Translations under genes and position numbers: made by a program
Part shown: positions 4,905-34,741 of the stretch, piece after piece
Position numbering within the stretch: the stretch's first letter is position 1
How the letters are laid out: each line of letters starts with the position of its first letter
Assembly (NCBI GenBank): GCA_024685775.1
Contig: JAIKVL010000004.1
Span: forward strand, 134,486 to 169,226
Length of the DNA: 34,741 nucleotides
DNA from: Clostridia bacterium
Lineage (GTDB): Bacteria > Bacillota > Clostridia > Christensenellales > CAG-1252
Direction: 5' to 3'
Notes under the pieces: generated by a model
Seen by the model: the letters and a program-made list of their open reading frames with translations, nothing else
What the model was told of the DNA's origin: nothing
Database searches by the model: none

Positions 4905-4911
4905 AAAGTAT

Positions 4912-5075: not shown

Positions 5076-5091
5076 AAGCACGAGGTGAATT

Positions 5092-12115: not shown

Positions 12116-12723
12116 TGCAATATCTCCTTTTCTTCTTCGAGAGCGGCGTCGTCTTTGAACGAAAGGATGCTTTCGATCTTTTTCAGGCGCAGGCTTCGAT
12201 ACTCTTCCGCGTCCGGACCGCCCGCCCGAAAATACAGGTTGTGCGTTTCGTTCCAAGGAAGCGAGGGATCCGCTTGGATCACGGGATAAAACTTGCCCGA
12301 ATCCTTAACGATCTCGTCCGAGACGATCCCGATATTCTTTTCTTTCAAAAACGCGCGAACGAGGGGCGCGTCCGTATGCGGGACCAAAAGATAGCGTTTC
12401 GCGGCGGACGGCGTTTCGGATAAGATCTTGACGATCTCCCGTCCGCCCATGCCCGCGATCACGCAAACGTCCACCCTTTCGCTTCCGAGCGGCTTTAAGC
12501 CGTCGCCCGCGCGGCAAGAGAGCGTAACGCCCGTTTCTTCCGCGAGGACTTTCGCTTTCATCAGGCTCTTTTCGCTGATGTCGATTGCGATCGCCCGTTT
12601 GACCTTGCCTTCGAGAAGCGCGGCGACGGGCAGTTTCCCGTGATCGGTCCCGACGTCGCAAAGGCTTTCCCCCTCGATGAGCGACAGGCAGCGCGAAAGG
12701 CGTTTGTCGAGTTTGATCCTCAC
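12103..12723 (-). CDS. trmK: tRNA (adenine(22)-N1)-methyltransferase TrmK
   Basis: 206-residue class I SAM-dependent methyltransferase that makes m1A22 in tRNA in Gram-positive bacteria. Motif I is [11 protein letters not shown] (about residues 22-32), AIDIS follows as the motif II acidic site, and AGMGGREI (~90) is the characteristic TrmK catalytic-region motif. I chose GTG 12723 as start: it overlaps the rpoD stop as GTGA, a standard coupling arrangement. A TTG four codons upstream is also in frame but lies deeper inside rpoD. The position directly after rpoD and before a Nif3-like gene matches the Bacillus sigA-trmK(yqfN)-yqfO order. Confidence 0.9.
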
Positions 12724-16535: not shown

Positions 16536-16649
16536 AACTTTTCCCTCCCGATTATTTGCCCAAACCACGCATTTTTCGCGCGTTCTTACCTGATTTGCGG
16601 AGCATTTCCACGCAAAAAAGATACCCACTGCCGACAGTTAGGCTATTAA

Positions 16650-17478: not shown

Positions 17479-18150
17479 TTATTCGCCGTCGATCTCGGAT
17501 GCGTCGTCGACCAAAAGGTCATCCGCTCCGCTTTCGGAAAGCGCGTCCGACGAGTTTTCACCCGTCGCAGCGAAGCTTTTCGCGGTTTTATTCGCCGATT
17601 TCGATTTCTTCTTATCTTCTTTCGCGCGTTTTTTCTTTTCCTTATCCGAGAGCGTTTCCTCTTTCGTATCTTCTTTTTCCTCTACGGAGAGTTCATCCGA
17701 AGATCCCTCTTCCGCAGGATTATCCAAGGCGTCTTCTTCTGAGATCGACTCGCCGCCTTGGGGCGCCGTATCCGCATCGGCGGGAACCTCCGCAGATTCC
17801 GCTTCGGTTTCGCCTTCACTTTCTCCGCTCGTCCCTTCTCCTTCGGTCTTCGAGCCTTCCGCGGGGTTTTCTCCCTCCGCAACGGGTTCGATTCCCATCC
17901 TTGCGATTACGAGCTTTTCCGTTTCGTCCGCGGGAGATCCGGCTTCGTGCGTTTCCGCAGGCGCATCTCCGCCTTCGGTATCGGTCTTTTTCGAAGACTT
18001 ATCTTTCTTCGGCGCTTTTTCCTTCTTCGGCTTCTTCGGTTTCTTGGGCTTAAACACTCTTCTCTTACTCGCCTTATGGAGAGCGACGAGGATCACGATC
18101 GTGATGATCGCCATCACGAGGACCGAGCCGCCGTAGACGAGGATCTTACC
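17479..18150 (-). other. Membrane anchor and cytoplasmic tail of the giant protein
   Basis: A single hydrophobic helix (about 18150-18076) is followed by KRRVFKPKKPKKPKK and then about 200 residues dominated by Glu, Asp, Ser, Lys and Ala, with no Cys or aromatic core. By the positive-inside rule the tail lies in the cytoplasm. Low complexity suggests disorder. A basic block KEKKKRAKEDKKKSK-like segment recurs near 17610. Confidence 0.75.
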
Positions 18151-21100
18151 CGTCGTCGTCTTCAAGAAGGATTTTTGGTTAATGACAAGTTTCGCGTCGG
18201 AAAGACCTTCTTTGGTTACGTTGCCGACGAACGCCGCACCCGTCGCCGTGGATTTATCGAACAGGGATTCGCCCGAGTAGGCGTTCACGATATCGATCTT
18301 GATATTCGAATACTCGTAACTGCCGAGGCTTTCGCCCTCCGTTCTGTCGCCAGTAACGTAGATCTCGAAAGTTCCGTCCGCGATCTCGAAATAATTCGGG
18401 ATCGCCGCGTAATCGTCGTAGGGGTCTTCCGCGGAGAGGACGTACGCGATATTGGGATCGCGGTCGCCGATCGTCTTGGACGTGGGAACGAGTTTGATGA
18501 CGATCGAGACGGGAGCGACAGAAACGTTCGCGTTAAACGTCGCTTTAACGTTATTATTCGCGGCGATCAAGCCGAGTTCGTCCGCCGTCTTTTTACCTGC
18601 GGAAGGAACGAGTCTGGAAAGCTTATAATAAGCGATCTTCAACTCGGAAGCGATGTAATCCGACGCTTCTTTATCCGTGCTGCCCACGGGGATTTTCAGG
18701 AAGTTCGCGCCTTTTTCGATCGAGAATTTCAAGGCGGCTTTGTTATCGCCGTAATAGATCGTGTTTTGCGCTTCGAGATCCGTACGCTCGACGACCGCGG
18801 GCGTAAACGCGCCTTGGCTATCGAAATAGCCGACTTCCGCTTTGACGGTGACCGCCGCCGGATTGATCGTAAAATCCCCGGGGATCACGGAGATGAAGTA
18901 GTTTTCCGTGATCGGCGCGTTTTCGGCTTTGGTCGCCTTCAACGAGAAAGTGCCGTTGATCTTATAGCTTCCGACGCTGACCGCGTTTTGCACCGAGTAC
19001 TTCTCGGCGACGACCTTGACTTTATCCTTATCCTTTTCAAGCAGACCTTCGTGCTTATAGGTGACGAGCGCTTCTCTGAAATCGCTAACCGCGTTATAGG
19101 TCTTGGTAAAGTCGGAGATGCGGATCGTTAGATATTTCTTCGTAACGATGATCATGCGTTGTCCGCTCTGCATCGTGATGCCCGAAATGCTGTCCGCAGC
19201 GTCTTGCGTGGTGAAGTCCGCGCTGAACACGGCGTCGTATTCGCCGACGTTCAAAATCGTGCTTTCATCGTAACCGACGAGCGCGTTTACGCCGAGATCC
19301 GCAAGCGTCGCGTTTCTCTTCTCGCTTCCGAACATCGCGAAATAGAGATCGGCAAGCGAAATGCTTCCGTCGCCGACGATCGGCGTGTATTTGATCGTCG
19401 AGATCGGCGTTCCGTAGATTACCGAAGTCTTATTCGGTTTCAAGCGGATCGCGACCTTCTTGATCTCGTAGAAGTTGCCGCCCTCTTTCGCCGAGGTCAG
19501 ATCGTAGCGAGCGGTCACGTCCGTCTTGTCGTCCATAACTTTATAGACGAGCGGATATTTGCCGACGCGTTCGCCCGGTTCTCTCGAAACGACGAGCGTA
19601 TGCGTCTTTTCGACGAAGGATTGCCCTTGCGTCAAAGACGCGTAGATGGTTTCCGTTCTCTTTCCGATAAACTTGACGTTTCTTTCCTCTTCGGCGGAAA
19701 CGGTCATCTTCTTCGGCGTGACCTTCAAGACTCCGTCCGCTTTGAGAACGGCTTTTCTGACGCCGTCCACGAGGGCGTATCCGTCCAAACTCGCGACCGA
19801 ATAATTCTTGTTCCGATCGGAGAACAGGCAAGCGAGATCGTAGCGAACGGTCTCCGACGGGAGAAGGATCTTGCCCTCGTTATAAGTGATCGCGTCGAAA
19901 TAGAGCTCGTCGCCTTCTTTCATTCCCGTATGCGAGCAACCGCCGCCGCACTCGCTTCCCGAGCAGACGTGGTATTTCGGCTTGTAATCCGTGTCGCCGT
20001 ATTCGATTTCGTCCGGATCGAAGATGATCTTGACCTCGGTCGGGCGCACGATGTAGTACGCTTCCTGCCCCGTCATAACGACGTTATAGTTCTTCAAAGC
20101 GAGGCTGTCGCCGACGATGATGCGATAGGCGCCCGCATCGAAGACGTCCGCATTCTCGCGGGTCAGGATCTTGGACGCGACCGCTTCGTAGTTCGCGCGG
20201 TCTTGCGCAAGAAGCCCGCTCTTGACCGTCGGAACGAACGCGACGGGCGAAGAGAATTGCGAGAGATAATCGGTTTCGATCGAAGCGACTTCGAGTTCGA
20301 GCGTCGCGCGGCGAATGTTCGCGCGAATCAAACCGTCCTGCGTAGAGGTGATCTCGTTCCCGTCGAATGCGTAATCGAGATAGACGTACTTATGATCGCC
20401 GTTCGGATCGGTCGACACGAGTTTCGCTTTTCCGCTCACGACGACGACCTTTCCTTGCTCCGCGTTCGCGTCCTTAAACGCGAATTTGACGCCGTCCACG
20501 GAGACGTACGCCGCGTCGCCGCCCTTGAAGCCTTGGATCTGCATGCTGCCGGGGAGCAATTCCGCGTCGACCTTGCCGTCGTAGACTTTATCTTTGATCA
20601 CCAAGCTCTTGAAGGTCAGGATCGCGGGCGTGATCTCCAAGCCGGAGGTCGCGTTGCAAAGGACTTTCGAGCCGGCGTAGACCTTATAGCTGACGAGATA
20701 CGAACCGGCGTGGAAAGGCTTATCGTTGACGAGCGGAGGCGTGGCGCCCAGCGCGGAATAGTTGGAGACGACGGTATAGCCTGCGTTTTGCGCGCGGGTC
20801 GTGACCGAATTCAAAGCCGAGGTCGAGGCGGTGATATTCGCGCCGCTGTACGTCGCCGAGATCCACTCCATCGGAACGTAGGTCAGTTCGGCGTTCAAGA
20901 CGATGTTGTAATGCCCCGTCGTCCAAGTGATCTCGTACTTCCAAGCGTCGGAAGAATTCCTCGTCGCGGTTTCGTGCGCGCTCGTAGAGGTCAAGCCCCA
21001 GAACATATACCCCGTTCCGATATTGCTGACTTTGACGGTGATCTTCGAACCGCTTCCTTCGAGTTCGTCCGCGAAATAGACGCCGAGACCCGAGAAGACC

Positions 21101-24100
21101 GGCATATTCGCCGCGCCGTTTTTGAGGATCTCCTCGCTGACGCCCGTGTAATTCACCGACACGAGATAGCGAAGCGCGAAGACGGCGGAGACGGGCGCCG
21201 CGAGCGAATATTCATTCTTCGCCCTGCCCGATTCGTCCTTATTGACGATCGTCCCGTTCTTATCTTTCCAAGCGCGAAGCGCGTAGTTGCCTTGCGCGGA
21301 AGCCGCGTAGACGATCGAATCGCCGAACGTCACTTCGATCGTTCCGTCGCCGTAAACGTTCATATAAGAAGCGATCGTTTCTTCGTGGACCGCGGAAGCG
21401 TTCGTTTGATACGTCACGACCGTGCAAAGGGTGAATCCGTCGCCGCGGAGCGCGTTACCGGAAAGCGTCGCGCTCTTGAACGCGACCGCGATCTTTTCCG
21501 CGGTTCCGCCTTCGCCGAGGGTAATGAAGCCCGCGTTAAAGGTCCCGCCCGTGACGGTGATCGTGTTCGAGCCGGAAAGCGCGCCTTTGAAACCGAGGAG
21601 AGGCAGGATGGTCGCGCCGTTAACGGCGAAAGATTCCGCGATGGCGACGGAGCGATCGGCGAGCTTGGTCGGAGAAACTTCGGTCGCGCGCGAGAGTTTA
21701 TTGAAGTCGCTTTCGCTTCGGACGACCGCGGGCGCATAGACCGCTTCTTTCGCCTTTTCGGAAATCGTCACGATCGACGCGAAATAGAACGCCTCGTTAT
21801 CCGATCCCGTAAAGACGGGAGTCAAACCGTCAAAGGAGGGAGTCAACACCGCTCCTTTCTCGTAATAGACGAAGGAGTACGATCCGCTCGACGCGGTAAG
21901 CGAGCTACCGTAGGTCTTATCGAAGGTCATAACGATCGCGCCGCTCGAACGATAGGACGGGATGGTCATTCCGCTGTCCGACAAGCAAAGGACGACGTTA
22001 TTCATCGTCGCGCCCGCCGTAGAGAGATCGACGTATCCTTTTCGGAGATAGACGACGCCGTTGCGGAAGACCCCGCCTTGGGATCTCGAAGTAAAGAGAG
22101 AGCCTTCGCCCATGGCTTTCATCGAGAGAGAATGCCCGCCGAGGTCGAGGATGATCCCGTCGAAATAGACGGACGGGAGATTTCTCTTGACTTCGAGATC
22201 GGACGCAAGCGTGATCACGCTGCCGGGAGCAAGCCCGCCTTCCGCGGTCAGATAACCGAGATAGACTAGTTCGTCCTCGGAAGAGATTTGAGAAATGCTC
22301 TTGACGGAGATCTTCGCGCCGGACGCGCTTTCGGGAGCGGTGTAGAATCCGGTCGCATAGTTATACGCGCCGGGGAAGACGACTTTCCCGTCGAAGTCAT
22401 ACAAGCAGACGAACGATCCGACGAGCGGCGTGAGCTCGAAGCTGACTTTCGTCCCGATATTGGTCTTTTGATAGGTCGCGCCGATAACGGTGTCGGAATC
22501 CACGCGCAATTCGTTGACGCCGACAAGGCTTCCTTCCTCGACCGCTTTTTCCGCGCCGCCGGTCACGAACCAGCAGTTCTTCATCGCGCCGCCGTTCGCC
22601 AAGCAAAGCGCCGCGCCGCCCGAGAAGGCGTCCGTATTCAAAGGCGAAAGGACGATGACCGCGCTCATCAAACCGCGGTTGATCTTAACGAGGCAAGCGT
22701 CGCCTTTAACGCTGACGCCGCTTTCGAATTCGAACACGAGATCTTTCAGCTCGCCGTACAAAGTGTGGATAAAGGGATTCGCTTGGATCTCGTAAAGGAT
22801 GACGCTGTCCGCTCCGCCGACGATGCTTCCTTTGAACGGACGCTCCGCGCTGCCGATCGTCCGGATCTCGGTATCGACGGTAAATCCTCCGTCTTTGACG
22901 AAGAAGGTCTCGTCGAGGAATTCGAATTCGCCCGCGACCGCCGTAGCAAGACGGCTGAGATCGTCCGCGGAAGACAAGACGCGATTGACGAAGTTCAACA
23001 TATACGCGTTGCCCGCGGAGGAAGCAAGCGAGACGCGCTTCTCGGAAATGACCTGCCCCGAGACTTCGCCCTGCTCGCCGTACCAACCCGCGAAGACTTG
23101 TTCGTCCGTGCTTGCCGCCGTGGCGACGATCCTTTCGCCGAATTCATACTTCACGTCGCTGAGTCCGTTTCCGAAGATCACCGAGTAGCGATCGCTGTAT
23201 GCGGAAGTCGACTTGAACGCTTCGTACAGCGACGCGCTCGAAGTTTCGAAATAGACGTTCGTCGCTTGGACGGGAGCGCCGACGGAAAGCACGTCGCGAT
23301 TTTCGACGAACACGACTTTTTCAAGCGTGACGGTTTGATCACCGTCGAAGATCGACACGCCCGCGGAAAGCGCCGCGAGATTGACGCGCGCATTTTTGAT
23401 CGTTCCCGCAAAGAGTCCGAGCGCGCTTCCGTCGAAGCCCGCAAGGAAAGTCAGAGAATGACCCGCGCCGTCCAAAACGCCTTTGAAGGCGCGCGACTTA
23501 AAGCCTGCGAGCGGAGCGGGAACGGCTACGTCCGCGCCGAGCGTAAACGTCTCGTCCGCGCCGTCGTAACCGAGCAGGATGACGTCGGAAAGGACGGTGA
23601 ACTTATACGTCGTGTCGATGACCGTGGAAATGAATTCCGCGGTATAAAGCCCCGCCGCCGCGGAGACTGTGTTCATTTCGGGATTTGCGGAAAGGATCGC
23701 ACCTTCTTTCGTCCAGCCGATGAAGATCATATCGCCTTCCGAGGCTGCGGTAAGCATCATATCGCCTTCGCCGCCCTGCTCGATCGAACCGACGCCGTTG
23801 ATGCGGACGACCGAATACGCTGCCGCGCCTTGCGCCAAAGCGTAATCGACGCGCGTCACGACCCAGAGGTTGATCGCCTCGCCCGAGCCTTCCTTCATAA
23901 ACAGACCGCCCGAAACGACCGCGCCGTTTTCGAGATAGACGACCGCGTTTTCAATCCTACCGCCGTTATTCGCTGCGAGATAAGCGTTCGTCTCTTCTTT
24001 GTCGAGGCGCAATCCGATGTTACGGATCGTAGCGGAAGTCTGACCGAAGAGACCGCCCGTCAAGGTCGTTCCGCCGACCGTGACGACGTGATGTCCGCCC

Positions 24101-27100
24101 TCGATCGTGACGGAGGAAGAAAGCGCCGCGCCGCTGCCGATCGCGTCAAAGGAACCGCCCGGAAGGAAAGCGTCCGCGGGGAGATCGAAATCGGAAACGA
24201 GGGTAAAGTTCGCGGAAGCGAAGGTATACGCGCCGCCGTTCACCGCTTGGGAGAACGCCGCGAGTTCCGCGCCGCTGCCGATCGTCTTTCTCGAAGAAAG
24301 CATCGCTTTGACGCCCGCGACGCGCCTCGAAACCACCTCGCTGCCGTTCATATCAAAGGTCGTGTACGAAAGTTCGGAACCCGAATAATTTACGTTTTTG
24401 AGGTGCGCGCCCGTTCCCGCCGCGCAAGCGCCGTTCTTGATCTCCGCAAAGGTCAGGAACGCGTCCGTTACCGCGACTTCGGTCGCGAAAGCGATCTTAC
24501 CCGCGAGGACATCCTCTTTCGAGGGACAAGACAAAACCAATCCTTCTTCATAGGTCATCGAGTTCACGAGGTCGCAGGAAGAGACCGAAGAGAGTCGATC
24601 GGTATAGACCCAAACGTTATTGACTTTTTCCGCCTCGCGAACGAGGTTGGAACCGATCGCGCTGTCCGTTCCGCCGAGCACGCAATCGACGATCTTGATC
24701 AAGCTGTTCGAAACGGCGTTGACGTTATTCCCGACGAAGCCGCCGCCGATGCCGCCCGTGATCGTCCCGTTCGTAACTTCGATATATGCGTTATCGAGAT
24801 AGCCGAGGTTCAAGCCGACGCCGACCGCGGAGAACGCGCTGAGAGAGGCTTCAACCGTGATCGCGCCTTCGAAAGAAACCGAGATTACGCGAACGCCTTT
24901 ATAGTTTTCGCCCGCGATACCGCCCGAATAGCCGCTCGCCGCTCCCGAAGAGGAGATCTTCGCCGAGGACAGGATCGAAAGATCGCTGTCTCGGAAGTAC
25001 CCGTTATTGATTCCGACGACGCCGCCCGCGACGCAGGTATTGTCGCTTCCCTTCGCGAGGATCTCGCCGCCGAGCGAAATCGAAACGTCCGAGATCGTCC
25101 CGAAATTATAACCGACGAGTCCGCCGACCGTGTTACCGATCAACTTCGCGTTTTCGGAAAGCGTAAACGTGCAATCCTTGATATCGCCCTGCGCGTTGGA
25201 AACGAGCGCGCCCGAATAGATCGCGCTTTCGGAACCGAACGTTCCCTCGTCAAGGACGTAATTGAGGTTTTTGATCAAGCTTCCGACCCCGGTGAAACCG
25301 AACAAGCCGACGTACTCCGCGCCGGGGATCGAACCGCCCTTCATCGTCAGGGTGAAATTCTTTCCGTCGAAGACGTTGTTGAACGAGTAATCCATCGTTC
25401 CGATCGTTTCTTTGAGATCGCCCGCCTCGACGGTAACGTCGTTCATCAAAGTAAAGACTATATCTTCACCCGACAGCCCGCTGCTGACGGAAGCCGCCAT
25501 ATCCGCAAGATCCGCAGCCGAGCGGATCTCGGTGTTTACAAAGACGACCATTACGCTCTTGTTTTGGATGGCCGCCTTCGGAAGGAAGGTGTTTTTCCCT
25601 TCGCCGACGTTACCCGTCTGCGCGTCGACTTGAACCCCGGAGCCGAGATACCAGCCGTCGAGCTGAGAACCGTTATCGTCCGTCATATTCGTAAACATAA
25701 CGCTTTCCGCCGTCGTGTCGATCGAGGCTTTGACCGTTCCGTTTCCTTTGACGTTCAAACTGTTGATGGTCTTTGCACCGTAGCCTGCGGTTTGTACGGA
25801 GCGATTATAAGTAACGAGCCAGCCGTTTATAACGGTAATACCGTCGAGATAACCCGCCATACCGCCCGCGTAGGAGGAAGACAGGCTTTCGCCGAATAGG
25901 AACGCGACGTTATGGTTGATCGAAGCTCTCGTGTATCCGACGAAAGCACCCGAGCGCGCTCCGCCTTCGGTGAGCGCGTTGGTTTCGACCTGCGCGTCGT
26001 TTTGAACGTAGACGATCAAATAAGACGCACTTCCGGAATAGTTGTTTCCGATCGCGCCGCCCGCATTCGCGATGCCGCCCGATTTCTTCGAAAGCGCGGA
26101 GATCTTTCCAAAGAGGAAAACGTTCGCTTCGAGATCGTACTCGTGAAGGACGAAACTTCCTCCGTCCTTAACGTAGCGCGTCGCTTTGGGCAAAATGCCG
26201 AGCGATTTCCAGCCCGAGTAATCGCCCGTACCTTCGATCACTCCGTAGTTGATTCCCGCGATGCCGCCCGCATTGATCGCGTTACCCTCGCGGCTTTCCG
26301 CGCGGATCTCACCTTTTACGATGACGAGGCAGTCTTTGATCTCGCCGTCGTTTCTGCCCGCGATACCGCCCGCGGAGTACCCGAGGACTTTACCGCTTTG
26401 AGCGATCTCGACGTAGCAGCGTTCGATCAATCCGTCATTCACCGCGGCGACCGTCCCGTAGACGTGATCGGAAGAACTCGTAATCTCGCCGATCGTCCCG
26501 TTTACCGTGACGCGGAGATCGCGGATATCGCCTTTGTTATATCCGAAGACGCCGCCGACCGAGTACCCTTCGCGCAACGTGATCGAATAGTAGGAATTAT
26601 CCAGTTTTCCGGAGAAGGTTCCCTTAAAGGGATGCGCCTCCGTTCCGATCGGGAGATAGTTTCCGGTCATGATCGAGGGGATCTCGATATTCGCGCCGAG
26701 AGTAAAGGTCAAGGTGTCGAAGGAATAACCGCCGATATTGACGTCCTCCGCGACGGCGATGAGCTCTTCCGCGCTCTCGATCGTCGTCTTAATGACCGCG
26801 ACTTCGTAGCCCGCGGCGGATAAGTCGATCGGAGCGACGAGATAACCGTGCGCGCCGCTCGTCAGGCTGCCGCCCGCAAGCATCGCCTCGGAGATCTGCC
26901 AACTCTTCTCGAAGGACTTGAACCAACCCGAAACGGGGATATCGGAAGTCGAGGTGAATTTTACGCGATAATCGTTATGCGCGACGTCCTTAAAGGACGC
27001 GTCCACCGTTCCGATACCGACGATCTTCATCGTGTTGACCGAAGTGTCGCCCGTCGTCGCGCTGCCGACGGAAAGGATCAGATCGGAAGCGTCCACCAAG

Positions 27101-30100
27101 CCCCAAACGTTCTTTACGAGGTTCGTGTTATCGTAACCGACGACGAGACCGCTGACGCCTTTCAGAGTGCGAATGTTCGCGCCGTTCGATATGACGACGA
27201 CGTTCTCGATCTGCCCGTTATTATATGCGATCGCGCCTGCGTAAGAAGCGTTGATTGCGCCCATTTCGACTTGCGCGGCGGTATATTCGTCGTGACCGAG
27301 CGTCCCTTTAAGAAGGATTCGGAGATTTTTGATCGTGCCTTCTTCCGCGACGTAGCCGAAGATACCCGCGTGCGTCCCGCCGATCACGGCTTCGGGCGCG
27401 AGAATGATCGAATGTCCTTTTCCGTCGAAGGTCCCGTTAACGCCGTTTTCCACCGTGCCGATCGAGAAGAACTCGTCGTTCTCGCCGATCGTGACGTCGG
27501 ATTTCAGCGTAAAGGTCAGTTTGTAGAAATTATAGCCTTCGTTGATATTCTCCGCGTATTGTTTGAGATCCGCGAGAGAATTGATCTCGCTGTTCAGGAA
27601 GCTGACGTTATAACCGACGCGTTTCAGATTCGCGTTCGGTTCGTAAGATCCGCCCGTCGCCCCGATGGACGCGGCTTTATCGTTCGTAAAGGAATTGAGA
27701 TCGTACCAATAAGACGTTCCGCTGTAAGTAAAGTGATACCTCGTAGCGTCGTTGGGCTGACGAATGACTCCGACCTGCCCCGCCGCGACGACCATAATGT
27801 TATTGACGCCGCCTTGGTTACTGCCGCTATCCGTGAAATTCGAAGCGGAGACGAAGCCCGCGTTGAACGTCAATTCCTCGGCGTTCAAGTCGTAATTCAT
27901 CTTGCTGTTATAGGAGATCGCCCAGCAGTTGGTCGCGACGTTGCCCGCGTTTCTCGGCAAATAACCGAACGTCCTGCCGACGCCGACCGAACCGTAAAGC
28001 GAGGCTTTCTTATCGAGAATGACGACGTTATTCTTGTATTCGCCGCCGAGAGCGTACGCCGCGAGGACGCCCGCGTAGATCGTGCGGGTCGTGTTTTCGC
28101 CGGTATCGTAACCGATCTTACATTTCGCGTTTACGGTCAGATTCTTGATCCTCGCCTGCGCGCCGACCCTGCCGAAAAGACCGGCGTAACGCGCGTCGAT
28201 GACGAGACCTTCGGGCATCGTGATCGTGTGACCTTTGCCGTCGAATCCGCCGATGAAATCGCGCTCGACGTAGTTGACGTAAGAAGTTCCCGCGCCCGTG
28301 ATGACTTCGCCGCCGATCGGATTGAACCCGATCTCGTTCAAAGTAATGTCTTTCGTAAGTTCATAAGTAATGCCGCGATAGTTTCTACCGTAACGGACGT
28401 TCATCGAAGTGCGTTCGAGGTCTTCGACGCTCGAAATGTACTTATTGATAAAGACCGCGAGCATATCGGGGCTGACCGTGTCGCTCGGGCGAACCGTCCA
28501 AACGTACAAAGACGCGCTCGCCGCTCCGTCGTGGATCGGGGTAACGACTTCATCCGTCACGTTCGTGTTGTCGATATAGCCGTAGAAACCGTCGCGACCG
28601 TCTTCGTCCACTTCGGTCGAATCGAAGGTGATCTTGGAACCGTCCGATTGGATCTCGATCCGCATCGAACCGACGCCGACCTGCTGCATCGACCTACCTT
28701 CGCCTTTGGTCGCGCGATTCGCAAGATAATAGTCGGCAAGTCCGACGGGGTTCTTAACGGTCGCATTCTCGGCGAGAACGAGCCAAGCGTTTACGAGAGT
28801 ATACCCCGCTTCCGCTCTGCCCGCGATGCCGCCCGTCGAGGGTAAGCCTTGGGTCGTATAGACGATCGTATCCGCGCGGAGAGAGACGACGACGTTTCTG
28901 AGTTCGCCGGCGAGATAACCGACCGCCATACCCGCGTAGAGCGTCGTGGTATCGCCGACTTTGACGTTTTCTCCCGCCGCGACGATATGGAGGTTTCGGA
29001 CGAGACCGCCGTTTCCGATATAACCGAAGACGCCCGCATAATCGCGCTTGATCATGCGACCCGTAACGCTCAGCGTGTAGCCGTTTCCGTCGAAGAGACC
29101 CGTGAAGGGGCGATCCGCCGTTCCTGCCGATTCGCAGGAATCGAAATTGACCGAAATATTATTGAGAAGGGTGAATTTCGCGCCTTGGTCGCCGTAGGTA
29201 TTGATGTTTTTCGCGAAACGGACGAAATCGTCTTCGTCTCGAATCGAAAGATTGATAAAGGAAAGCACGATTTTAACGTTCGAAACGTTTAAGGCGGGAG
29301 TGATCGAGACGTCTCTGTCCGAATCGGAAGCGTTATAGGTCAAAGCGCCGTACATCGATTCGTAGCCGGGGAGCGAATTCACGAGTTCCGCGGAACGAAT
29401 GTCGGAATACCAACCGCCGAATTCCTTGAAGAACTCCTCGCATCTCTTCTTGAACGCGCTGTTGCCCGTCTTCCCGTCGGGGACGGAATACTTTACGCGA
29501 ATGGGAGAGGTCGTTCCGAATTCGTAGTCTTGCAAGAAGGAGACCTGCGTCAAGCCGGAGCCGAGGACGGCGATCTCGTTTACGCCGAAGTTATCCGCGC
29601 CGGAGCCGTTTCCGATGAGGGGCGTGCGCCCGTTCAGGACGCTGATCCAAGAATTGATCGCGTCGTTTTCTTCCTGCGCCGCGTCGTAATAACCGATGAA
29701 AGAGCCCGCATATCTCTTCGCGGAGTTGAAGATCAAGCTCGAACTCAGATTAACGAAGACGTTGCGGATCTCCGCGCCGTTTCTTCCGACGAGCGCGCCG
29801 ATCTCGAAGGTGTTGACGCCGCCGATCGTGACGTCCTCGGAAATATCGAGGATGAAGTTGCGGATCACGGCGTTCTTCGTCGTGTAGCCGAAGAGACCGG
29901 TATATTCCATACCGCTGATCGCGCTGCCCGAAGCGAAGGTGATCTTATGATAGCCGCCGTCGAAGATCGCGTCGAACGGATGATCTCCGTTTCCGATCGG
30001 AGTCAAAACGGTCAGGTTGTTCAGTTGGATATCGTTTTCGACGATAAACAAAACGCCCTTATAGTAGTTATGTCCGTTGATCAGGTTCGCGAGCCCGACG

Positions 30101-33100
30101 AGCGAAGTCGCGTTCGTGATATGCAGATCGACGTAGCTCAGATGGATGTTTTGATTTACGACGTTGTTGGCGGGCGAATAGGTCGATTGATTCAAAAGTC
30201 CTTCGCTCTTTTCGGTGATTCTGCCCTTTCCTTCGTCGTCCCAATCCGAGACGTTTTTATACCAGCCTTTCGCGCCTTTGATCAAAGAACGGAAAGTAAA
30301 CATATTTTTTTCGAAATCGAGCGTGACTTGGAGAAGAGTCTCTTCCATAACGCGGATCGCGTTGAAGCCGCTGTCCGGAGTCGGGCAAGTCGGCGTGTCG
30401 GTCGAGTTACTGATCTGGACCCACGCGTTCGATCCCGCGCCGACGTGCGCTTGCGCGGCGGCAAGTCCCGTCGTCGTTCCGCGGAAAATTCCGTAACAAG
30501 TCAAAGCGGAATGCCGGACGGTACCGGTCATGACTGCGGCAAAGCCGCCCGCGTATTGCGCCTTGACGACGCCGTTCTCCCCGTTTGCCGCGCTGCCGAT
30601 ATCTCCGCGGATCGTAACGAGGGTGGAAGCGATCTCGCCCGCGTTGACCGCGGTCACCGCGCCTGCTTTCGAAGCGGTGACGAAGCATCCGTTCGCGCTT
30701 TCCGCCGTGCAGTACGAGAGAGAACCTTGGTTTTCGCCAACGAGGACCGCCGCGGAATCCGAAGCGATCGCGGGAGCGTGGATCTCGGTCAGGACGGAGA
30801 AGATCTGCCCGCTCTCTTTATTGGAGCCGACCGCGCCGCCGAAAATCTTCGTCGTCCTCGTCCCCGTCGTAAAGGCGGAAATCAAAACTTCGACGCTCGA
30901 ACCGACGGTCGGCGAAGCGTAGATATACGATTTTACGAGGGATTCGTGATCGCTTGTTACGTCGCCGATCGCGCCTTCGTTCTCGCCCGCGATACCGCCG
31001 AACGCGGTCTTTCCGAAATAATTCGCTTTTTTGTTGATCGAGACGAAACCGCTTCGGATCGTTCCGAGGTTCTTACCCGCGAGTCCGCCGACCGTACTGC
31101 CGGCGAGCATTCCGTCCACCGTCACGATCGGGAAGATCATGACGCCGGAATTCGCGTTCGTTCCGACGATGCCACCCGCCGTCGTGCCGAAAATCACGCC
31201 GCCGAGATCGCCGCCCGCTTTGATCGTAACGATGACGGAGTTGGAAGATTCGCTTCCGACGACGCCTTCGTTCAAACCGACCGCACCGCCGACGTTCTTG
31301 CCGAGGATCGCGCCGTAGCCGTCCTTGCCGATGTAGTTTGCGTACTCGAAGGTGATATTTGCGGAAGAGATGACGCCGCCGTTTTTGCCGGCGATCGCGC
31401 CCGCCGTTCCGTTCTTATTCGCGAGATAACCGCGAACGTCCATCGTAACGCCCGAGATTGTACCGTAGTTGACGTTGGTCAAGAAACCGCGTTCCTTATT
31501 CGAACCGGATTCGGTAAGGTACGTTCCCGCTTGAACGACGATCTTCAAATTCTTGATCTGCGAATAGTAATTCCCGTCGTTGTTTCCGAGGACGCCGACC
31601 AGCGCGTGCATACTGCTTGCGGAATCCAGCGTAATCGTGCAACCGTTTCCGTTCAAGCTTCCGCGGAAAGGCTTTTCCTCGCTTGCGCCGAGCGCCTTAT
31701 TCGCCGTGGCGGCGTCGATAACGAAAGAATTCGCGACCTGATAACGGACGTACAATCTGAAATCGTTCGCGACCTTATCCGCGATGTACTTGTAATCGTC
31801 TTGATTTTGAAGAACGCTCTTTTGGAAGCAAGCGTAAAAATCCCTGCCCGTAAATCCGATCGGAGCCGCGTAGACCGTCCCCGTGTTTCCTTCCGGGACG
31901 GTGACGAGGGTACCGGTCTCGAAATTCGAAACGTAATCGTAGAAATCGGGATCGTTCGCGTTCATCGCGGGCGAGGTCGAGTACTTCGTCGAATTGAAGC
32001 GGATCTGACCGCCCTTCGCGTCGTTTCCGACGACGTACTTGACGATCGAGACTTTGATCTCTCCCTTTCCGTATTGGGTCATCGAGTTCGCGCTCAAATA
32101 GTTCGTCCCGTTGACGAGGACGGATTTCGCGGTGTCGGGATTGGCTTCGCCGTTTTCGCGATAGATCTCGATCGGAGTGCCGAACGCGGGATCGTAGAGG
32201 TTTTCCTTGCTCGGATTCAGCGAGCGGAACAAGCACCACAGCGTGTCGACGTAGGTGGATTCGTTTCTGCCGATGATAAACGCGCGGAATTTATTGAGGG
32301 AAGCTTTGCTGCCGCTGTTTCCGTTCAAAGTGGTTCCCGCGTTTGTGACGCAAGAGACGACGGAGTAGACCGCCGAGCCCGCGCCGTTGATCCCGACCAC
32401 GCCGCCGAGGACGTACTTCGAGTTATTGGAGTAAAGTCCCATATGGGACGCGGTGATCTTAAAGTCCGCGATCGCGTTTTTGAGGATCGGGACGGAGGCT
32501 TCGCTCTGATCGTTCTTGCCGGCGATTCCTCCCGCGACGACCTCTTTGTTCGCGTCGGAAGAAACGGGGTTCAAGCCGCCCTCTCCGGTGACGATCGTTT
32601 CGACGTTTTGAACGAGGTTGCGATTCTCGCCGACGATACCGCCGATCACCTCGCCCGTTAAGGTCGCCGAGAGTTCCGCATAGACCTTTACGGACGCGGA
32701 ATCCTGCCCGATCGTTCCGTTATTGATCGCGGCGACCGCGCCGGCGTACTTGACTTTGGTGCTTCCCGTTTGAGACGTGACCTTGACGCGGACGTTCTTG
32801 ACGGACGCCTGATCGCCCAGACAGCCGAACAGACCCGCGTAAGAGCTGGATCCGTCGACGCCGTTCAAAGAAATGCTGAGACCGTTTCCGTCGAACGCGC
32901 CTTGGAAGGGATATTCGAGGTTGCCGATCGGGACGTAGTTGCTCGGGAGCGTAATATTCGTGCCGAGGGTAAAGGTAATGTTTTTATAATCTCTTCCTTG
33001 GATCGAGGAAGAAGCGATCTTCATAACGTCCGCGGCGAGGAAAAGTTGAAGCGGGACGACGCGAACGATGTAAAGCTGACCGCTGACGTTTTGGTTTTCC

Positions 33101-34741
33101 GGCGTAAAGAAATTGCCGTCCAAGCCCGCGAGTTGCATCGTTTCCGCGCCCGCGGAATCGACTTTGTACCAGCCCGAGAAGGTCACGCCCTCTTTCGCAA
33201 GCAAGGTAAAGGAAACGTTATCGTTTATCGCCCTGCCGATCGCGATCGTCTGTTCGACGTAAGCGCGGCTTGCGCTCGTGTTTGCGCTGTCGGAAGATTT
33301 ATCGCCGACGATAGGTCTGCCTTCGCTTCCCATCGTGCCGTACGTATACTCGACGTACGGCATGACCGCCCAAGCGTTTTGGAAGGTGATGGGGGTAACC
33401 GTGCTGCTTCCGTCCGCAAGAGTTCCCGAGCCGCCTCTGCCGACCATCGCGCCGATATTTTGCTTCCAAACGGAATCGCAATTCAGCGTGTCGGTGTTAA
33501 ACTCGCCTTTTTCCGCCATTGAACCGACGCAGTTCAAAAGGGTCGCCGGGACCGCGTTATATCCGATGATCGCGCCGACCGACTGGCAACCGTAGGTATA
33601 ATAGATCACGTCCGCGCCGTCGTATTTCTCGGTCATCTTCCCGGAATCGTCGGGGACGGACGCTCCGAAGATCATTTCCGTCTTTTTCGCCATAAGTCCT
33701 TCCGCGATAACGGCGTCTTTGAGATTCGGAAAACCGAATTTGGCGCAAACCACGTTTTTCATATCGACAAGATAAATGTTCTGAGAGACGTAGACCTTCT
33801 CAAAGGAGTAATAGACGGCTTTATGACAGGTGGAAATGTGTTCGAGGTTGAATTCGCCGCCGACGTACGCGCAAACGTTCGTCAAGGTATTTGACGAATG
33901 GTTTTCGCCGACGATCCCGCCGACATCCGCCGCATACTTGGCTTTGATCTTAACCTTGCCGTAAATATCCGCGCTGACGTTCGAGATCGAGCCCGCGTTA
34001 TAGCCGACGATCCCGCCGAATTTGACGTTGGCGGCGGCGATATTGACGAAGCCGGATTTGGAGACGTTGAGCTGGATATTCGAGACGGAACCGATGTTCT
34101 TACCGACGAGGATCCCGCAATCGTACTCCGCGACGAAGAACGTCGCGACGCACCTTTTTACGTCGACGTAGCCGGGGTTTCTCTTTCCCCTCGACGCGTC
34201 GTAACCCGTACCTGTAAAGTAGTACGCGTACGCTTTGTCCGCTTCCAAAGAGGAAGGCGCGAGTTTGGTTGCTTCTTGATTATCGAAAAATTCCTGATAG
34301 GTAAAGGTCTTACTCGCAACATCATCATCCCATTCCTTAACGCCGCTTGTTTCTTCATATATAACGCCTCTCTCGTCCACGATAGAACCGCCGAAGTCGA
34401 TCTTGACGTTGGAAATCACGCCGTTATTTATCCCAAACAGACCCGTGTAATAATGCTCGTAATAAGGAGTCTTTCGATCCTTCGGTTTCTCGTCGTAATA
34501 ATCGGAGAAATCTTTGCCGTTCGTTCCCGTCTCCATATAGCTGTGGGAAATCTTTGCGCCTGCGGCGTAGGTGATCGTGTGCCCTTGCCCATCAAACTTT
34601 CCGTTCAAAACTTCGATGACGGGCGTGCCTTCTTTAACGAGGATATCACTTCCGAGCTTGGTTTCCAACCAGCTGAGCGTAACGGCGCTTGCGCCCGAAA
34701 AATGAGCCCTGTGATCGCCCGAAGTCCCGAGTTTGGACCAA
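17479..34741 (-). CDS. Giant modular surface protein (GLUG-like and MBG/YDG-like repeats), N-terminus outside window
   Basis: Open frame of more than 5,750 codons running off the right edge. The first in-window candidate start (TTG 34668) is preceded by 24 further open codons, so it is not the true start. From N to C: about 13 beta-helix-type modules with GLUG-like motifs (GGIVGxNxGxI) and FDGxGHTIT strands; eight or nine MBG/YDG-like domains (18180-20900); a helix KILVYGGSVLVMAIITIV near 18150-18076; a KPKKPKKPKK stop-transfer segment; and a charged tail of ~200 residues. It is expected to be extracellular with a C-terminal membrane anchor. No LPXTG motif is visible at the end. Adhesion is the usual guess for such repeats but is not shown here. 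No catalytic domain was recognised in the visible part. The upstream promoter and signal peptide are not in view. Confidence 0.9.
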   Translation of the reverse strand, partial: WSKLGTSGDHRAHFSGASAVTLSWLETKLGSDILVKEGTPVIEVLNGKFDGQGHTITYAAGAKISHSYMETGTNGKDFSDYYDEKPKDRKTPYYEHYYTGLFGINNGVISNVKIDFGGSIVDERGVIYEETSGVKEWDDDVASKTFTYQEFFDNQEATKLAPSSLEADKAYAYYFTGTGYDASRGKRNPGYVDVKRCVATFFVAEYDCGILVGKNIGSVSNIQLNVSKSGFVNIAAANVKFGGIVGYNAGSISNVSADIYGKVKIKAKYAADVGGIVGENHSSNTLTNVCAYVGGEFNLEHISTCHKAVYYSFEKVYVSQNIYLVDMKNVVCAKFGFPNLKDAVIAEGLMAKKTEMIFGASVPDDSGKMTEKYDGADVIYYTYGCQSVGAIIGYNAVPATLLNCVGSMAEKGEFNTDTLNCDSVWKQNIGAMVGRGGSGTLADGSSTVTPITFQNAWAVMPYVEYTYGTMGSEGRPIVGDKSSDSANTSASRAYVEQTIAIGRAINDNVSFTLLAKEGVTFSGWYKVDSAGAETMQLAGLDGNFFTPENQNVSGQLYIVRVVPLQLFLAADVMKIASSSIQGRDYKNITFTLGTNITLPSNYVPIGNLEYPFQGAFDGNGLSISLNGVDGSSSYAGLFGCLGDQASVKNVRVKVTSQTGSTKVKYAGAVAAINNGTIGQDSASVKVYAELSATLTGEVIGGIVGENRNLVQNVETIVTGEGGLNPVSSDANKEVVAGGIAGKNDQSEASVPILKNAIADFKITASHMGLYSNNSKYVLGGVVGINGAGSAVYSVVSCVTNAGTTLNGNSGSKASLNKFRAFIIGRNESTYVDTLWCLFRSLNPSKENLYDPAFGTPIEIYRENGEANPDTAKSVLVNGTNYLSANSMTQYGKGEIKVSIVKYVVGNDAKGGQIRFNSTKYSTSPAMNANDPDFYDYVSNFETGTLVTVPEGNTGTVYAAPIGFTGRDFYACFQKSVLQNQDDYKYIADKVANDFRLYVRYQVANSFVIDAATANKALGASEEKPFRGSLNGNGCTITLDSASSMHALVGVLGNNDGNYYSQIKNLKIVVQAGTYLTESGSNKERGFLTNVNYGTISGVTMDVRGYLANKNGTAGAIAGKNGGVISSANITFEYANYIGKDGYGAILGKNVGGAVGLNEGVVGSESSNSVIVTIKAGGDLGGVIFGTTAGGIVGTNANSGVMIFPIVTVDGMLAGSTVGGLAGKNLGTIRSGFVSINKKANYFGKTAFGGIAGENEGAIGDVTSDHESLVKSYIYASPTVGSSVEVLISAFTTGTRTTKIFGGAVGSNKESGQIFSVLTEIHAPAIASDSAAVLVGENQGSLSYCTAESANGCFVTASKAGAVTAVNAGEIASTLVTIRGDIGSAANGENGVVKAQYAGGFAAVMTGTVRHSALTCYGIFRGTTTGLAAAQAHVGAGSNAWVQISNSTDTPTCPTPDSGFNAIRVMEETLLQVTLDFEKNMFTFRSLIKGAKGWYKNVSDWDDEGKGRITEKSEGLLNQSTYSPANNVVNQNIHLSYVDLHITNATSLVGLANLINGHNYYKGVLFIVENDIQLNNLTVLTPIGNGDHPFDAIFDGGYHKITFASGSAISGMEYTGLFGYTTKNAVIRNFILDISEDVTIGGVNTFEIGALVGRNGAEIRNVFVNLSSSLIFNSAKRYAGSFIGYYDAAQEENDAINSWISVLNGRTPLIGNGSGADNFGVNEIAVLGSGLTQVSFLQDYEFGTTSPIRVKYSVPDGKTGNSAFKKRCEEFFKEFGGWYSDIRSAELVNSLPGYESMYGALTYNASDSDRDVSITPALNVSNVKIVLSFINLSIRDEDDFVRFAKNINTYGDQGAKFTLLNNISVNFDSCESAGTADRPFTGLFDGNGYTLSVTGRMIKRDYAGVFGYIGNGGLVRNLHIVAAGENVKVGDTTTLYAGMAVGYLAGELRNVVVSLRADTIVYTTQGLPSTGGIAGRAEAGYTLVNAWLVLAENATVKNPVGLADYYLANRATKGEGRSMQQVGVGSMRIEIQSDGSKITFDSTEVDEDGRDGFYGYIDNTNVTDEVVTPIHDGAASASLYVWTVRPSDTVSPDMLAVFINKYISSVEDLERTSMNVRYGRNYRGITYELTKDITLNEIGFNPIGGEVITGAGTSYVNYVERDFIGGFDGKGHTITMPEGLVIDARYAGLFGRVGAQARIKNLTVNAKCKIGYDTGENTTRTIYAGVLAAYALGGEYKNNVVILDKKASLYGSVGVGRTFGYLPRNAGNVATNCWAISYNSKMNYDLNAEELTFNAGFVSASNFTDSGSNQGGVNNIMVVAAGQVGVIRQPNDATRYHFTYSGTSYWYDLNSFTNDKAASIGATGGSYEPNANLKRVGYNVSFLNSEINSLADLKQYAENINEGYNFYKLTFTLKSDVTIGENDEFFSIGTVENGVNGTFDGKGHSIILAPEAVIGGTHAGIFGYVAEEGTIKNLRILLKGTLGHDEYTAAQVEMGAINASYAGAIAYNNGQIENVVVISNGANIRTLKGVSGLVVGYDNTNLVKNVWGLVDASDLILSVGSATTGDTSVNTMKIVGIGTVDASFKDVAHNDYRVKFTSTSDIPVSGWFKSFEKSWQISEAMLAGGSLTSGAHGYLVAPIDLSAAGYEVAVIKTTIESAEELIAVAEDVNIGGYSFDTLTFTLGANIEIPSIMTGNYLPIGTEAHPFKGTFSGKLDNSYYSITLREGYSVGGVFGYNKGDIRDLRVTVNGTIGEITSSSDHVYGTVAAVNDGLIERCYVEIAQSGKVLGYSAGGIAGRNDGEIKDCLVIVKGEIRAESREGNAINAGGIAGINYGVIEGTGDYSGWKSLGILPKATRYVKDGGSFVLHEYDLEANVFLFGKISALSKKSGGIANAGGAIGNNYSGSASYLIVYVQNDAQVETNALTEGGARSGAFVGYTRASINHNVAFLFGESLSSSYAGGMAGYLDGITVINGWLVTYNRSVQTAGYGAKTINSLNVKGNGTVKASIDTTAESVMFTNMTDDNGSQLDGWYLGSGVQVDAQTGNVGEGKNTFLPKAAIQNKSVMVVFVNTEIRSAADLADMAASVSSGLSGEDIVFTLMNDVTVEAGDLKETIGTMDYSFNNVFDGKNFTLTMKGGSIPGAEYVGLFGFTGVGSLIKNLNYVLDEGTFGSESAIYSGALVSNAQGDIKDCTFTLSENAKLIGNTVGGLVGYNFGTISDVSISLGGEILAKGSDNTCVAGGVVGINNGYFRDSDLSILSSAKISSSGAASGYSGGIAGENYKGVRVISVSFEGAITVEASLSAFSAVGVGLNLGYLDNAYIEVTNGTITGGIGGGFVGNNVNAVSNSLIKIVDCVLGGTDSAIGSNLVREAEKVNNVWVYTDRLSSVSSCDLVNSMTYEEGLVLSCPSKEDVLAGKIAFATEVAVTDAFLTFAEIKNGACAAGTGAHLKNVNYSGSELSYTTFDMNGSEVVSRRVAGVKAMLSSRKTIGSGAELAAFSQAVNGGAYTFASANFTLVSDFDLPADAFLPGGSFDAIGSGAALSSSVTIEGGHHVVTVGGTTLTGGLFGQTSATIRNIGLRLDKEETNAYLAANNGGRIENAVVYLENGAVVSGGLFMKEGSGEAINLWVVTRVDYALAQGAAAYSVVRINGVGSIEQGGEGDMMLTAASEGDMIFIGWTKEGAILSANPEMNTVSAAAGLYTAEFISTVIDTTYKFTVLSDVILLGYDGADETFTLGADVAVPAPLAGFKSRAFKGVLDGAGHSLTFLAGFDGSALGLFAGTIKNARVNLAALSAGVSIFDGDQTVTLEKVVFVENRDVLSVGAPVQATNVYFETSSASLYEAFKSTSAYSDRYSVIFGNGLSDVKYEFGERIVATAASTDEQVFAGWYGEQGEVSGQVISEKRVSLASSAGNAYMLNFVNRVLSSADDLSRLATAVAGEFEFLDETFFVKDGGFTVDTEIRTIGSAERPFKGSIVGGADSVILYEIQANPFIHTLYGELKDLVFEFESGVSVKGDACLVKINRGLMSAVIVLSPLNTDAFSGGAALCLANGGAMKNCWFVTGGAEKAVEEGSLVGVNELRVDSDTVIGATYQKTNIGTKVSFELTPLVGSFVCLYDFDGKVVFPGAYNYATGFYTAPESASGAKISVKSISQISSEDELVYLGYLTAEGGLAPGSVITLASDLEVKRNLPSVYFDGIILDLGGHSLSMKAMGEGSLFTSRSQGGVFRNGVVYLRKGYVDLSTAGATMNNVVLCLSDSGMTIPSYRSSGAIVMTFDKTYGSSLTASSGSYSFVYYEKGAVLTPSFDGLTPVFTGSDNEAFYFASIVTISEKAKEAVYAPAVVRSESDFNKLSRATEVSPTKLADRSVAIAESFAVNGATILPLLGFKGALSGSNTITVTGGTFNAGFITLGEGGTAEKIAVAFKSATLSGNALRGDGFTLCTVVTYQTNASAVHEETIASYMNVYGDGTIEVTFGDSIVYAASAQGNYALRAWKDKNGTIVNKDESGRAKNEYSLAAPVSAVFALRYLVSVNYTGVSEEILKNGAANMPVFSGLGVYFADELEGSGSKITVKVSNIGTGYMFWGLTSTSAHETATRNSSDAWKYEITWTTGHYNIVLNAELTYVPMEWISATYSGANITASTSALNSVTTRAQNAGYTVVSNYSALGATPPLVNDKPFHAGSYLVSYKVYAGSKVLCNATSGLEITPAILTFKSLVIKDKVYDGKVDAELLPGSMQIQGFKGGDAAYVSVDGVKFAFKDANAEQGKVVVVSGKAKLVSTDPNGDHKYVYLDYAFDGNEITSTQDGLIRANIRRATLELEVASIETDYLSQFSSPVAFVPTVKSGLLAQDRANYEAVASKILTRENADVFDAGAYRIIVGDSLALKNYNVVMTGQEAYYIVRPTEVKIIFDPDEIEYGDTDYKPKYHVCSGSECGGGCSHTGMKEGDELYFDAITYNEGKILLPSETVRYDLACLFSDRNKNYSVASLDGYALVDGVRKAVLKADGVLKVTPKKMTVSAEEERNVKFIGKRTETIYASLTQGQSFVEKTHTLVVSREPGERVGKYPLVYKVMDDKTDVTARYDLTSAKEGGNFYEIKKVAIRLKPNKTSVIYGTPISTIKYTPIVGDGSISLADLYFAMFGSEKRNATLADLGVNALVGYDESTILNVGEYDAVFSADFTTQDAADSISGITMQSGQRMIIVTKKYLTIRISDFTKTYNAVSDFREALVTYKHEGLLEKDKDKVKVVAEKYSVQNAVSVGSYKINGTFSLKATKAENAPITENYFISVIPGDFTINPAAVTVKAEVGYFDSQGAFTPAVVERTDLEAQNTIYYGDNKAALKFSIEKGANFLKIPVGSTDKEASDYIASELKIAYYKLSRLVPSAGKKTADELGLIAANNNVKATFNANVSVAPVSIVIKLVPTSKTIGDRDPNIAYVLSAEDPYDDYAAIPNYFEIADGTFEIYVTGDRTEGESLGSYEYSNIKIDIVNAYSGESLFDKSTATGAAFVGNVTKEGLSDAKLVINQKSFLKTTTGKILVYGGSVLVMAIITIVILVALHKASKRRVFKPKKPKKPKKEKAPKKDKSSKKTDTEGGDAPAETHEAGSPADETEKLVIARMGIEPVAEGENPAEGSKTEGEGTSGESEGETEAESAEVPADADTAPQGGESISEEDALDNPAEEGSSDELSVEEKEDTKEETLSDKEKKKRAKEDKKKSKSANKTAKSFAATGENSSDALSESGADDLLVDDASEIDGE
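18180..20900 (-). repeat. Array of eight or nine MBG/YDG-like domains
   Basis: Tandem units of 80-120 residues lie between the GLUG array and the membrane helix. Boundaries recur as '(A)xxTIxxxVxxxxKxYDGxxxA' or 'xVxYGDxxP', seen in DKVYDGKVDAELLPG, IEYGDTDYKPKYHV, SVIYGTPISTIKYTP, FTKTYNAVSDFREALV and TIYYGDNKAALKF. Units end in 'xxNYxVxxxxGxYxIxP'-like strands (KNYNVVMTGQEAYYIV, ENYFISVIPGDFTINPA). This fits the MBG/YDG superfamily of surface stalk domains. One unit carries a Cys/His cluster near 19926-19974. Confidence 0.7.
21540..34741 (-). repeat. Array of about 13 degenerate GLUG/beta-helix protein modules
   Basis: Each module repeats one plan. An opener like 'INSxADLxxxAxxVN' is followed by 'xFTLxxDIxL', then 'PIGxxxxPFxGxFDGxGxxI', 'YAGLFGYxGxxxxIKNLxV', one to several 'GGIVGxNxGxIxNV', an 'NxWxV' strand and a 'GWY' turn (as in Listeria-Bacteroides-type repeats). 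Approximate module openers: 33050, 31800, 30130, 29250, 28440, 27600, 26790, 25550, 24290, 23610, 22990, 22290 and 21730. Pitch is 800-1,700 bp in most of the first eight modules and 550-700 bp in the last ones, which have lost most GLUG strands. Repeats are diverged at DNA level. Confidence 0.75.

Follow-up and report, generated by a model that had tools for sequence, protein, structure and literature searches.

Giant proteins of bacteria are often treated as isolated curiosities, and the locus described here raises the question of whether an open frame of this size, broken off at the end of an assembled contig, is a true gene, what kind of protein it encodes and what that protein may do for the cell. 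The window, that is, the whole stretch of DNA that was analysed (34,741 nucleotides; bases 134,486-169,226 of contig C4), belongs to a genome of 1.7 Mb in 38 contigs which is 97% complete. One frame on its minus strand, called giant2 hereafter, occupies 17479-34740 and has 5,753 codons and a stop, no internal stop in its translation and an open 5' side. Contig C4 has 169,226 bases and ends at the right edge of the window, so giant2 has been cut by the assembly, not by nature, and cannot be followed further in this assembly. The features of the window are as follows.

17479..34740, minus strand: giant2 gene, 5'-incomplete (ORF listing, translation, complete orthologues)
21328..34740, minus strand: predicted right-handed β-helix module region of giant2, aa 1-4471 (iterated profile, AlphaFold model, PDB comparison)
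18151..21063, minus strand: predicted Ig-like YDG/MBG stalk of giant2, aa about 4560-5530 (profile matches, model)
18082..18150, minus strand: single transmembrane (TM) helix of giant2, aa about 5531-5553 (hydropathy, model, 10 orthologues)
17482..18081, minus strand: Lys/Glu-rich, charged segment of about 200 aa that follows the TM helix (composition)
16719..17399, minus strand: gene for a 226-aa membrane protein, next downstream of giant2 (neighbour conserved in the genus)
15540..16628, minus strand: dgt-like HD phosphohydrolase (HD E 1.4e-13, HD_assoc E 5e-19; synteny marker)
13783..15630, minus strand: dnaG primase (downstream synteny marker)
12720..13796, minus strand: rpoD sigma-70 (downstream synteny marker)

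Two queries taken from giant2, its C-terminal 1,253 aa and a middle 1,500-aa segment, were run against its own genome and 40 relatives and gave matches in 14 and 18 of the 41 genomes, respectively. Complete orthologues are found as single open frames in 10 other genomes, namely G004, G005, G006 and G008 of the same genus, G014, G015, G016, G018 and G019 of a sister genus (g3) and G026 of another family. They measure 5,998-6,400 aa from stop to stop and 5,991-6,394 aa from the start codon, and all 10 give a full-length colinear alignment with the window protein, to which they are identical by 74, 63, 46 and 43% within the genus, 27-28% in g3 and 22% in G026. In addition, contig-cut pieces of giant2 occur in further genomes of the family (G001, G009-G013 and G017), and the tail of the G004 protein contains an N run. 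In the orthologues an ATG start stands after a GAGG or AGGAG-type site and is followed by a hydrophobic segment, and 587-696 residues precede the point where the window protein begins. Since these orthologues are complete, the window giant2 lacks about 590-630 N-terminal residues, and the full-length protein is about 6,340 aa.

Giant2 is kept intact by purifying selection along its whole length. Compared with G005 over 5,719 codons, dN is 0.188 and dS 0.883 (NG86), a ratio of 0.21, and dN/dS does not exceed about 0.31 in any of twelve 500-codon windows; compared with G006, the values are 0.309, 1.335 and 0.23 (NG86). Although plus-strand antisense frames of 1,000-1,200 aa are also present opposite giant2, the minus-strand frame is the conserved one. 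Because single open frames are found in 10 other genomes, colinear and with these two dN/dS ratios, the giant2 ORF is neither chance nor an accident of assembly. The sequence-only reading had described a single gene of more than 5,750 codons continuing past the window and had taken its intactness as a sign of selection, and both statements are borne out, the former by the codon count and by the orthologue lengths which it had proposed to compare, the latter by the ratio to the nearest relative. It had also named frameshifts or an upstream pseudogene as what would speak against it; the orthologues are intact, each with a start codon behind its GAGG/AGGAG-type site. Its suggestion to reach the N-terminus by extending the contig comes to a halt at the window edge, and the start codon and N-terminal signal were obtained from the orthologues instead.

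A point beyond that reading is that the window giant2 is the second of two giant genes, the upstream one being larger. This upstream frame, giant1, lies outside the window and is found in the relatives directly upstream of giant2 on the same strand. Its length, counted from the start codon, is 10,277 aa in G008, 10,290 in G006, 10,372 in G004, 10,458 in G019, 10,531 in G014 and 9,109 in G026, and counted from stop to stop 10,305 aa in G012, 10,553 in G015 and 9,077 in G055; in G005 the frame is ended by an N run at 9,889 aa. Wherever the junction lies on one contig, which is the case in 11 genomes (nine of family f1 and two of family f8), giant1 and giant2 are direct neighbours on one strand, and from the giant1 stop to the giant2 ATG there are 75 (G004), 109 (G006), 107 (G008), 105 (G014), 103 (G016), 106 (G018), 107 (G019) and 136 nt (G026), the other three junctions being those of G005, where the giant1 end is broken by the N run, G012 and G055. 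The junction is broken by contig ends in G015 and in the window's genome, and in the latter the start of giant1 is on contig C30, as a 1,244-residue stop-to-stop frame that runs off the contig end at 7,600 bases. Neither the C-terminal 1,519 aa of giant1 nor the N-terminus of giant2 was found in the window's genome, whose bin seems to lack about 27 kb, as estimated from orthologue length. A pair amounts to about 16,700 residues, which is about 3.6% of one genome.

Giant1 is under similar constraint, with a dN/dS of about 0.18 between G005 and G006 and none of ten 1,000-codon windows above about 0.30. Conservation of length, order and spacing over two genera of one family and in another family means that the evolution and function of these proteins can be compared across many genomes. 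On the other side, G003 gave no match to the giant2 queries and G002 and G007 none or a weak one, and when 12 further genomes of the genus are compared, G003 shows no match to the giant1 or the giant2 profile and G007 a weak one, so that the giant locus may be dispensable, though those bins are fragmented. Downstream, the 226-aa membrane protein gene and the dgt-like gene lie 3' of giant2 in G004, G005, G006 and G008, and, where the stretch is long enough, dnaG follows further downstream in G004 and G008 and rpoD in G008. The 226-aa protein looks by eye like the S subunit of an ECF transporter and has no Pfam match. In four g3 genomes (G014, G016, G018 and G019; L067, L069, L072 and L074) a different, lipoprotein-like gene of about 325-355 aa follows giant2.

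As to the architecture of giant2, an iterated profile of 166 columns recognises 22 copies or part-copies of one module between aa 19 and 4471, of which 12 are near-complete. Two modules (aa 1940-2760) were modelled by AlphaFold with 13 aligned proteins (mean pLDDT 86.8), and by this model the modules are of the right-handed parallel β-helix fold. Foldseek against the PDB gave no match to the two-module model at E ≤0.001, with top rows that were largely β-helix proteins, so that the model and a second-look alignment are the basis of the assignment. In the whole-model structural comparison 8 of 855 chains had a Z of at least 8; the top row of the second-look alignment was the Bacteroides ovatus protein 3n6z (Z 11.4, rmsd 3.9, 198 aligned), and further matches were the Streptococcus pneumoniae IgA1 protease 6xja (Z 9.2, rmsd 3.7, 173 aligned), a fucoidan lyase domain 7xz8 (Z 9.2, rmsd 5.4, 175 aligned) and the serine-rich repeat adhesin (SRRP) of L. 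reuteri, 5nxk_A (Z 7.0, rmsd 3.3, 135 aligned).

The Pfam GLUG family (PF07581) reached only 7.3 bits (E 9.6) against a 20.5-bit cut-off in the window segment and matched one of the 13 aligned proteins; the modules, which had been called GLUG-like from the sequence, therefore deserve this name as a statement of fold only. The MBG/YDG stalk proposed at the same time is probable: YDG (PF18657) scores 24 bits in the window protein (E 4.6e-5), just below the 25-bit cut-off, and matches nine of 12 aligned stalk proteins (E up to 10; best E 1.3e-11), and MBG_2 (PF18676) matches 10 of the 12 (E up to 10; best E 3.3e-9), the window protein not being among them. The stalk model is mostly β and of lower confidence (pLDDT 67.9, pTM 0.37). 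A hydropathy peak of 2.67 at aa 5533-5551 marks the TM helix, which also appears as a C-terminal helix in the model and is present in all 10 orthologues, and together with the repeated modules it upholds the earlier description of a membrane-anchored giant repeat protein. What does not hold generally is the long cytoplasmic tail, since the segment after the TM helix varies from 14 to 212 aa across the 10 orthologues and the Lys/Glu-rich tail of about 200 aa in the window protein is not a conserved feature.

An N-terminal hydrophobic signal accompanies the C-terminal TM helix in 10 of 10 giant2 orthologues. The signals of G016, G014 and G018 (L068, L072 and L074) end in LTAC or FVGC, which are lipobox-like, and those of the other orthologues end in AxA-like sites; by this sequence feature the giant2 of G016, G014 and G018 might be tethered at both ends. 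Among 18 orthologous giant proteins or fragments none has an LPxTG motif within its last 150 residues, nor was one seen by eye in the C-terminus of the window protein, and no Pfam or NCBIfam enzyme family exceeded its cut-off in the window giant2. An IgA1 metalloprotease of the M26 type was considered for giant2 and rejected, as the window protein has no HExxH zinc site; a single HExxH among the 18 orthologous proteins or fragments falls in a stalk and is taken as chance.

Giant1, by its sequence, is a bacterial lipoprotein: in all seven orthologues followed from the start (G004, G005, G006, G008, G014, G019 and G026) the N-terminal signal ends, by eye, in a lipobox-like Cys (for example ALVAFAC and VFVLVAC), and no C-terminal TM helix was seen in giant1 orthologues. 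Windowed profile-profile comparison of the G008 protein with itself shows strong similarity in two separate parts, the first ~7,400 residues and about aa 8000-9800. The repeat unit of the former part, which by its profile recurs roughly every 280 aa over these ~7,400 residues, gave 141 domain hits at iE <1e-3 in seven proteins, about 20 in each (iterated profile). A 40-unit profile found no match among PDB sequences at E 10; against Pfam there were scattered matches among the 40 units, the best at E 0.0028 in a single member, and no family; and no NCBIfam family reached its cut-off. Giant1 is thus built mainly of a domain family absent from the sequence libraries used. Alternation of hydrophobicity in the units is β-like (0.39-0.41, against 0.30-0.31 for shuffles and 0.22 for dnaG and rpoD), but this measure is weak evidence because it does not single out giant2, a β-helix protein by its model (0.32 against 0.31). 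In the distal part of the G008 protein Big_4 (PF07532) scores 83.5 bits and, in the preceding piece, 36.3 bits against a cut-off of 22.1, and there is one Flg_new-like domain (23.6 of 27 bits).

Moreover, Cys-rich runs with a unit like CGCx4Cx4-5Cx7-9CxxxCxCxC occur 5-11 times per protein in six giant1 of family f1 (G004, G005, G006, G008, G014 and G019) and are absent from the G026 giant1 and the G018 giant1 fragment. They are presumably metal-binding or disulfide modules in what is presumed to be an anaerobe. The giant1 of four genus members contain 205-207 Cys each (C4:1728-32558 of G008, loci L109, L101 and L062, and orthologues). A cyclotide identity was rejected for these runs, the PDB matches being weak (E 0.04-0.5) and taken as chance, and so was a transglutaminase in giant1, of which a core-like stretch was noticed in G005 and the pattern was present in one of eight giant1 sequences.

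What, then, may such a pair do? Omp85 was found in none of 41 genomes (the window's own and 40 relatives) and in seven of 14 controls, so no outer membrane is expected and the bacteria are taken as monoderm; the sources of the relatives include goat rumen and roe deer caecum, and several come from ruminants. Taken together with the gene structure, conservation, selection and pairing described above and with the predicted export signals and membrane anchors, giant1 and giant2 are best read, with a probability of roughly 0.6, as two giant partners in an adhesive structure on the surface of Clostridia that are monoderm and host-associated and belong to uncultured, Christensenella-like lineages. 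The lipidated N-terminus of the ~10,300-residue giant1 would sit in the membrane, its about 20 amphipathic-β domain copies and Cys-rich inserts would form a long chain and its Big_4-type Ig-like domains would make the distal end. The ~6,340-residue giant2 would be held by its one C-terminal TM helix, and the YDG/MBG stalk would carry about a dozen β-helix modules across the cell wall, so that they reach the exterior. There the β-helix and Ig-like modules would attach to glycans or proteins, be it on plant fibre, on host mucus or on other microbes, and giant1 would be the second strand or the base of one structure with giant2. Surface exposure, co-expression, joint assembly and adhesion of the two proteins are thus what we infer, adhesion being suggested by likeness to the SRRP β-helices and, as far as the available text of two papers goes, to the giant proteins of Apilactobacillus (PMC12863079) and Omnitrophota (PMC10066038); the filament or contact role which the sequence-only reading had proposed for giant2 would likewise fit as an inferred one. 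If the pair is an adhesive organelle, it would show how mostly uncultured Clostridia of gut and rumen hold on to fibre, host and other microbes.

Many polysaccharide lyases and tailspike enzymes share the β-helix fold, which by itself is therefore no proof of adhesion, and the absence of a sortase-type LPxTG motif from the giant2 orthologues also speaks against the adhesive reading. The modules of giant2 could instead be lyase- or epimerase-like polysaccharide processors which the stalk presents to plant fibre as a surface enzyme complex; pectate and pectin lyases, PL6 alginate lyases, GH110 and tailspike depolymerases do match the giant2 model (Z 6.5-9), and the ruminant origin of several relatives would suit such a task. 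The window giant2, however, yields no enzyme family above the cut-off of Pfam or NCBIfam, its best fold matches are 3n6z and the middle part of the IgA1 protease, a β-helix that is taken as non-catalytic, and its modules are divergent copies of one another as in scaffold repeats, so that we regard an enzymatic role as unlikely. It seems similarly improbable that the pair makes up a protective cell coat or sheath, S-layer-like or a fibrillar capsule, that binds nothing in particular: the amount of protein (16,700 residues and 3.6% of one genome, as given above) and the giant coat proteins proposed in Omnitrophota in the available text of PMC10066038 would agree with it, but neither the window giant2 nor the scanned giant1 has an S-layer homology domain, and two different membrane anchors are not the signals of a self-assembling lattice.

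Two further explanations concern giant1 more directly. Its first ~7,400 residues might be a chain of hydrophobic pockets or grooves that binds or passes on lipids or other hydrophobic compounds while giant2 holds the chain, a view which takes up the lipid anchor and the about 20 tandem domain copies of strong alternating hydrophobicity and no known family; since the domain matches no lipid-binding family and the alternation only indicates amphipathic β strands, we hold this to be very unlikely. Finally, drifting or decaying sequence that is kept open by chance or by assembly would account for the truncation of the window ORF at the contig end and for the fragmentation of several bins, but hardly for genes that are intact in many assemblies, colinear and with a dN/dS of about 0.2 along both proteins, and it is scarcely credible.

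The adhesive reading can be compared with what is known of giant surface proteins, which, as tandem genes, are a known kind of thing. According to the available text of PMC12863079, Apilactobacillus kunkeei, a host-associated Gram-positive bacterium, has tandem giant genes (Giant1-5) for extracellular proteins of 3,000-8,000 aa that take up to 6% of its 1.5 Mb genome, and their β-solenoid domain is likened to that of binding proteins. Those proteins consist of one N-terminal β-solenoid followed by an α-helical repeat rod and DUF5776 (same text), whereas here there are a dozen β-helix modules, an Ig-like stalk and a TM anchor, accompanied by a lipoprotein of ~10,300 aa; DUF5776 was not found in the window giant2 and its stalk model is all-β, and giant2 falls outside the definition of the Apilactobacillus Giants. 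The Omnitrophota, in the available text of PMC10066038, have ORFs of more than 20 kb with proposed adhesion roles, one of which encodes 39,678 aa. Most giant ORFs in Velamenicoccia are described there as poorly conserved and the 39,678-aa protein as having 42 predicted TM helices, whereas in the present case length and order are conserved across the family and giant2 has a single TM helix, at its C-terminus. The streptococcal IgA1 metalloprotease and B. ovatus 3n6z share a similar β-helix fold within a large surface protein, the window giant2 differing by the lack of HExxH. The binding regions of L. reuteri SRRP (5nxk and 5ny0) are an adhesin β-helix matched by part of the giant2 model, but SRRP has a single β-helix, its Z is only 7 and no serine-rich repeats were seen in the giant proteins described here. 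A literature search, which reached neither many subscription papers nor any bioRxiv preprint, found nothing describing the giant1-giant2 locus. As far as that search shows, a giant gene pair that maintains its size and spacing across a family of uncultured Clostridia is new, and so, as far as the searches show, is a lipoprotein of ~10,000 residues made of a domain absent from Pfam, NCBIfam and PDB sequences.

How widely the two genes are spread differs between them. The giant2 profile has hits in 221 of 396 genomes of the order, most of those listed matching only short GLUG-like stretches in ordinary-sized proteins, and the giant1 profile matches in 49 of the 396, the matches being strong in families f1 and f8 and weak in f3, f6 and f24, where they fall in frames of 1.8-11.7 thousand aa. 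In a class-wide sample of 391 genomes giant1 was found in two, which belong to this order as well. A viral or plasmid origin was rejected, as no relative of giant1 or giant2 was found among viral contigs and none of the giant2 segment among plasmids and phages. One might go further than the adhesive reading and see in the pair an order-specific two-gene surface machine, in which the ~10,000-residue giant1 lipoprotein forms a continuous amphipathic β chain, possibly a groove by which hydrophobic molecules are bound or passed across the thick wall, and is operated together with the TM-anchored β-helix giant, but this we consider decidedly unlikely.

The weaker giant1 loci had, at a loose threshold, 15 unit hits in G203, 14 in G354, 14 in G380, 15 in G172 and 13 in G143 and, at the same threshold, 15 each in G111, G197 and G241 and 10 in G266. 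No large giant2-like neighbour was seen at giant1 in G354, G380 and G111 of f3 (for G111, among frames of at least 500 aa) or in G203 and G172 of f24, G197 and G241 being outside this comparison as their giant1 runs to the contig end; these pairless loci make the lipoprotein look more widely spread than the pair. In f6 a lipoprotein of 7,368 aa (G143) or 7,250 aa (G266) is followed by a protein of 4,444 or 4,520 aa, respectively, with hydrophobic C-terminal segments. These partners are not matched by the giant2 profiles, and the f6 locus resembles the pair by layout and, in G143, by Ig-like/GLUG-like sequence read by eye. Furthermore, G316 of f28 (L146-L148, C2:45893-64897) has a lone giant2-like protein of 6,335 aa with a C-terminal TM helix, and a 3,766-aa lipoprotein lies about 10 kb from it. 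The longest frame seen, a single-frame lipoprotein of 11,674 aa with giant1 units, is that of G203 of f24 (L133-L134, C47:3749-38770).
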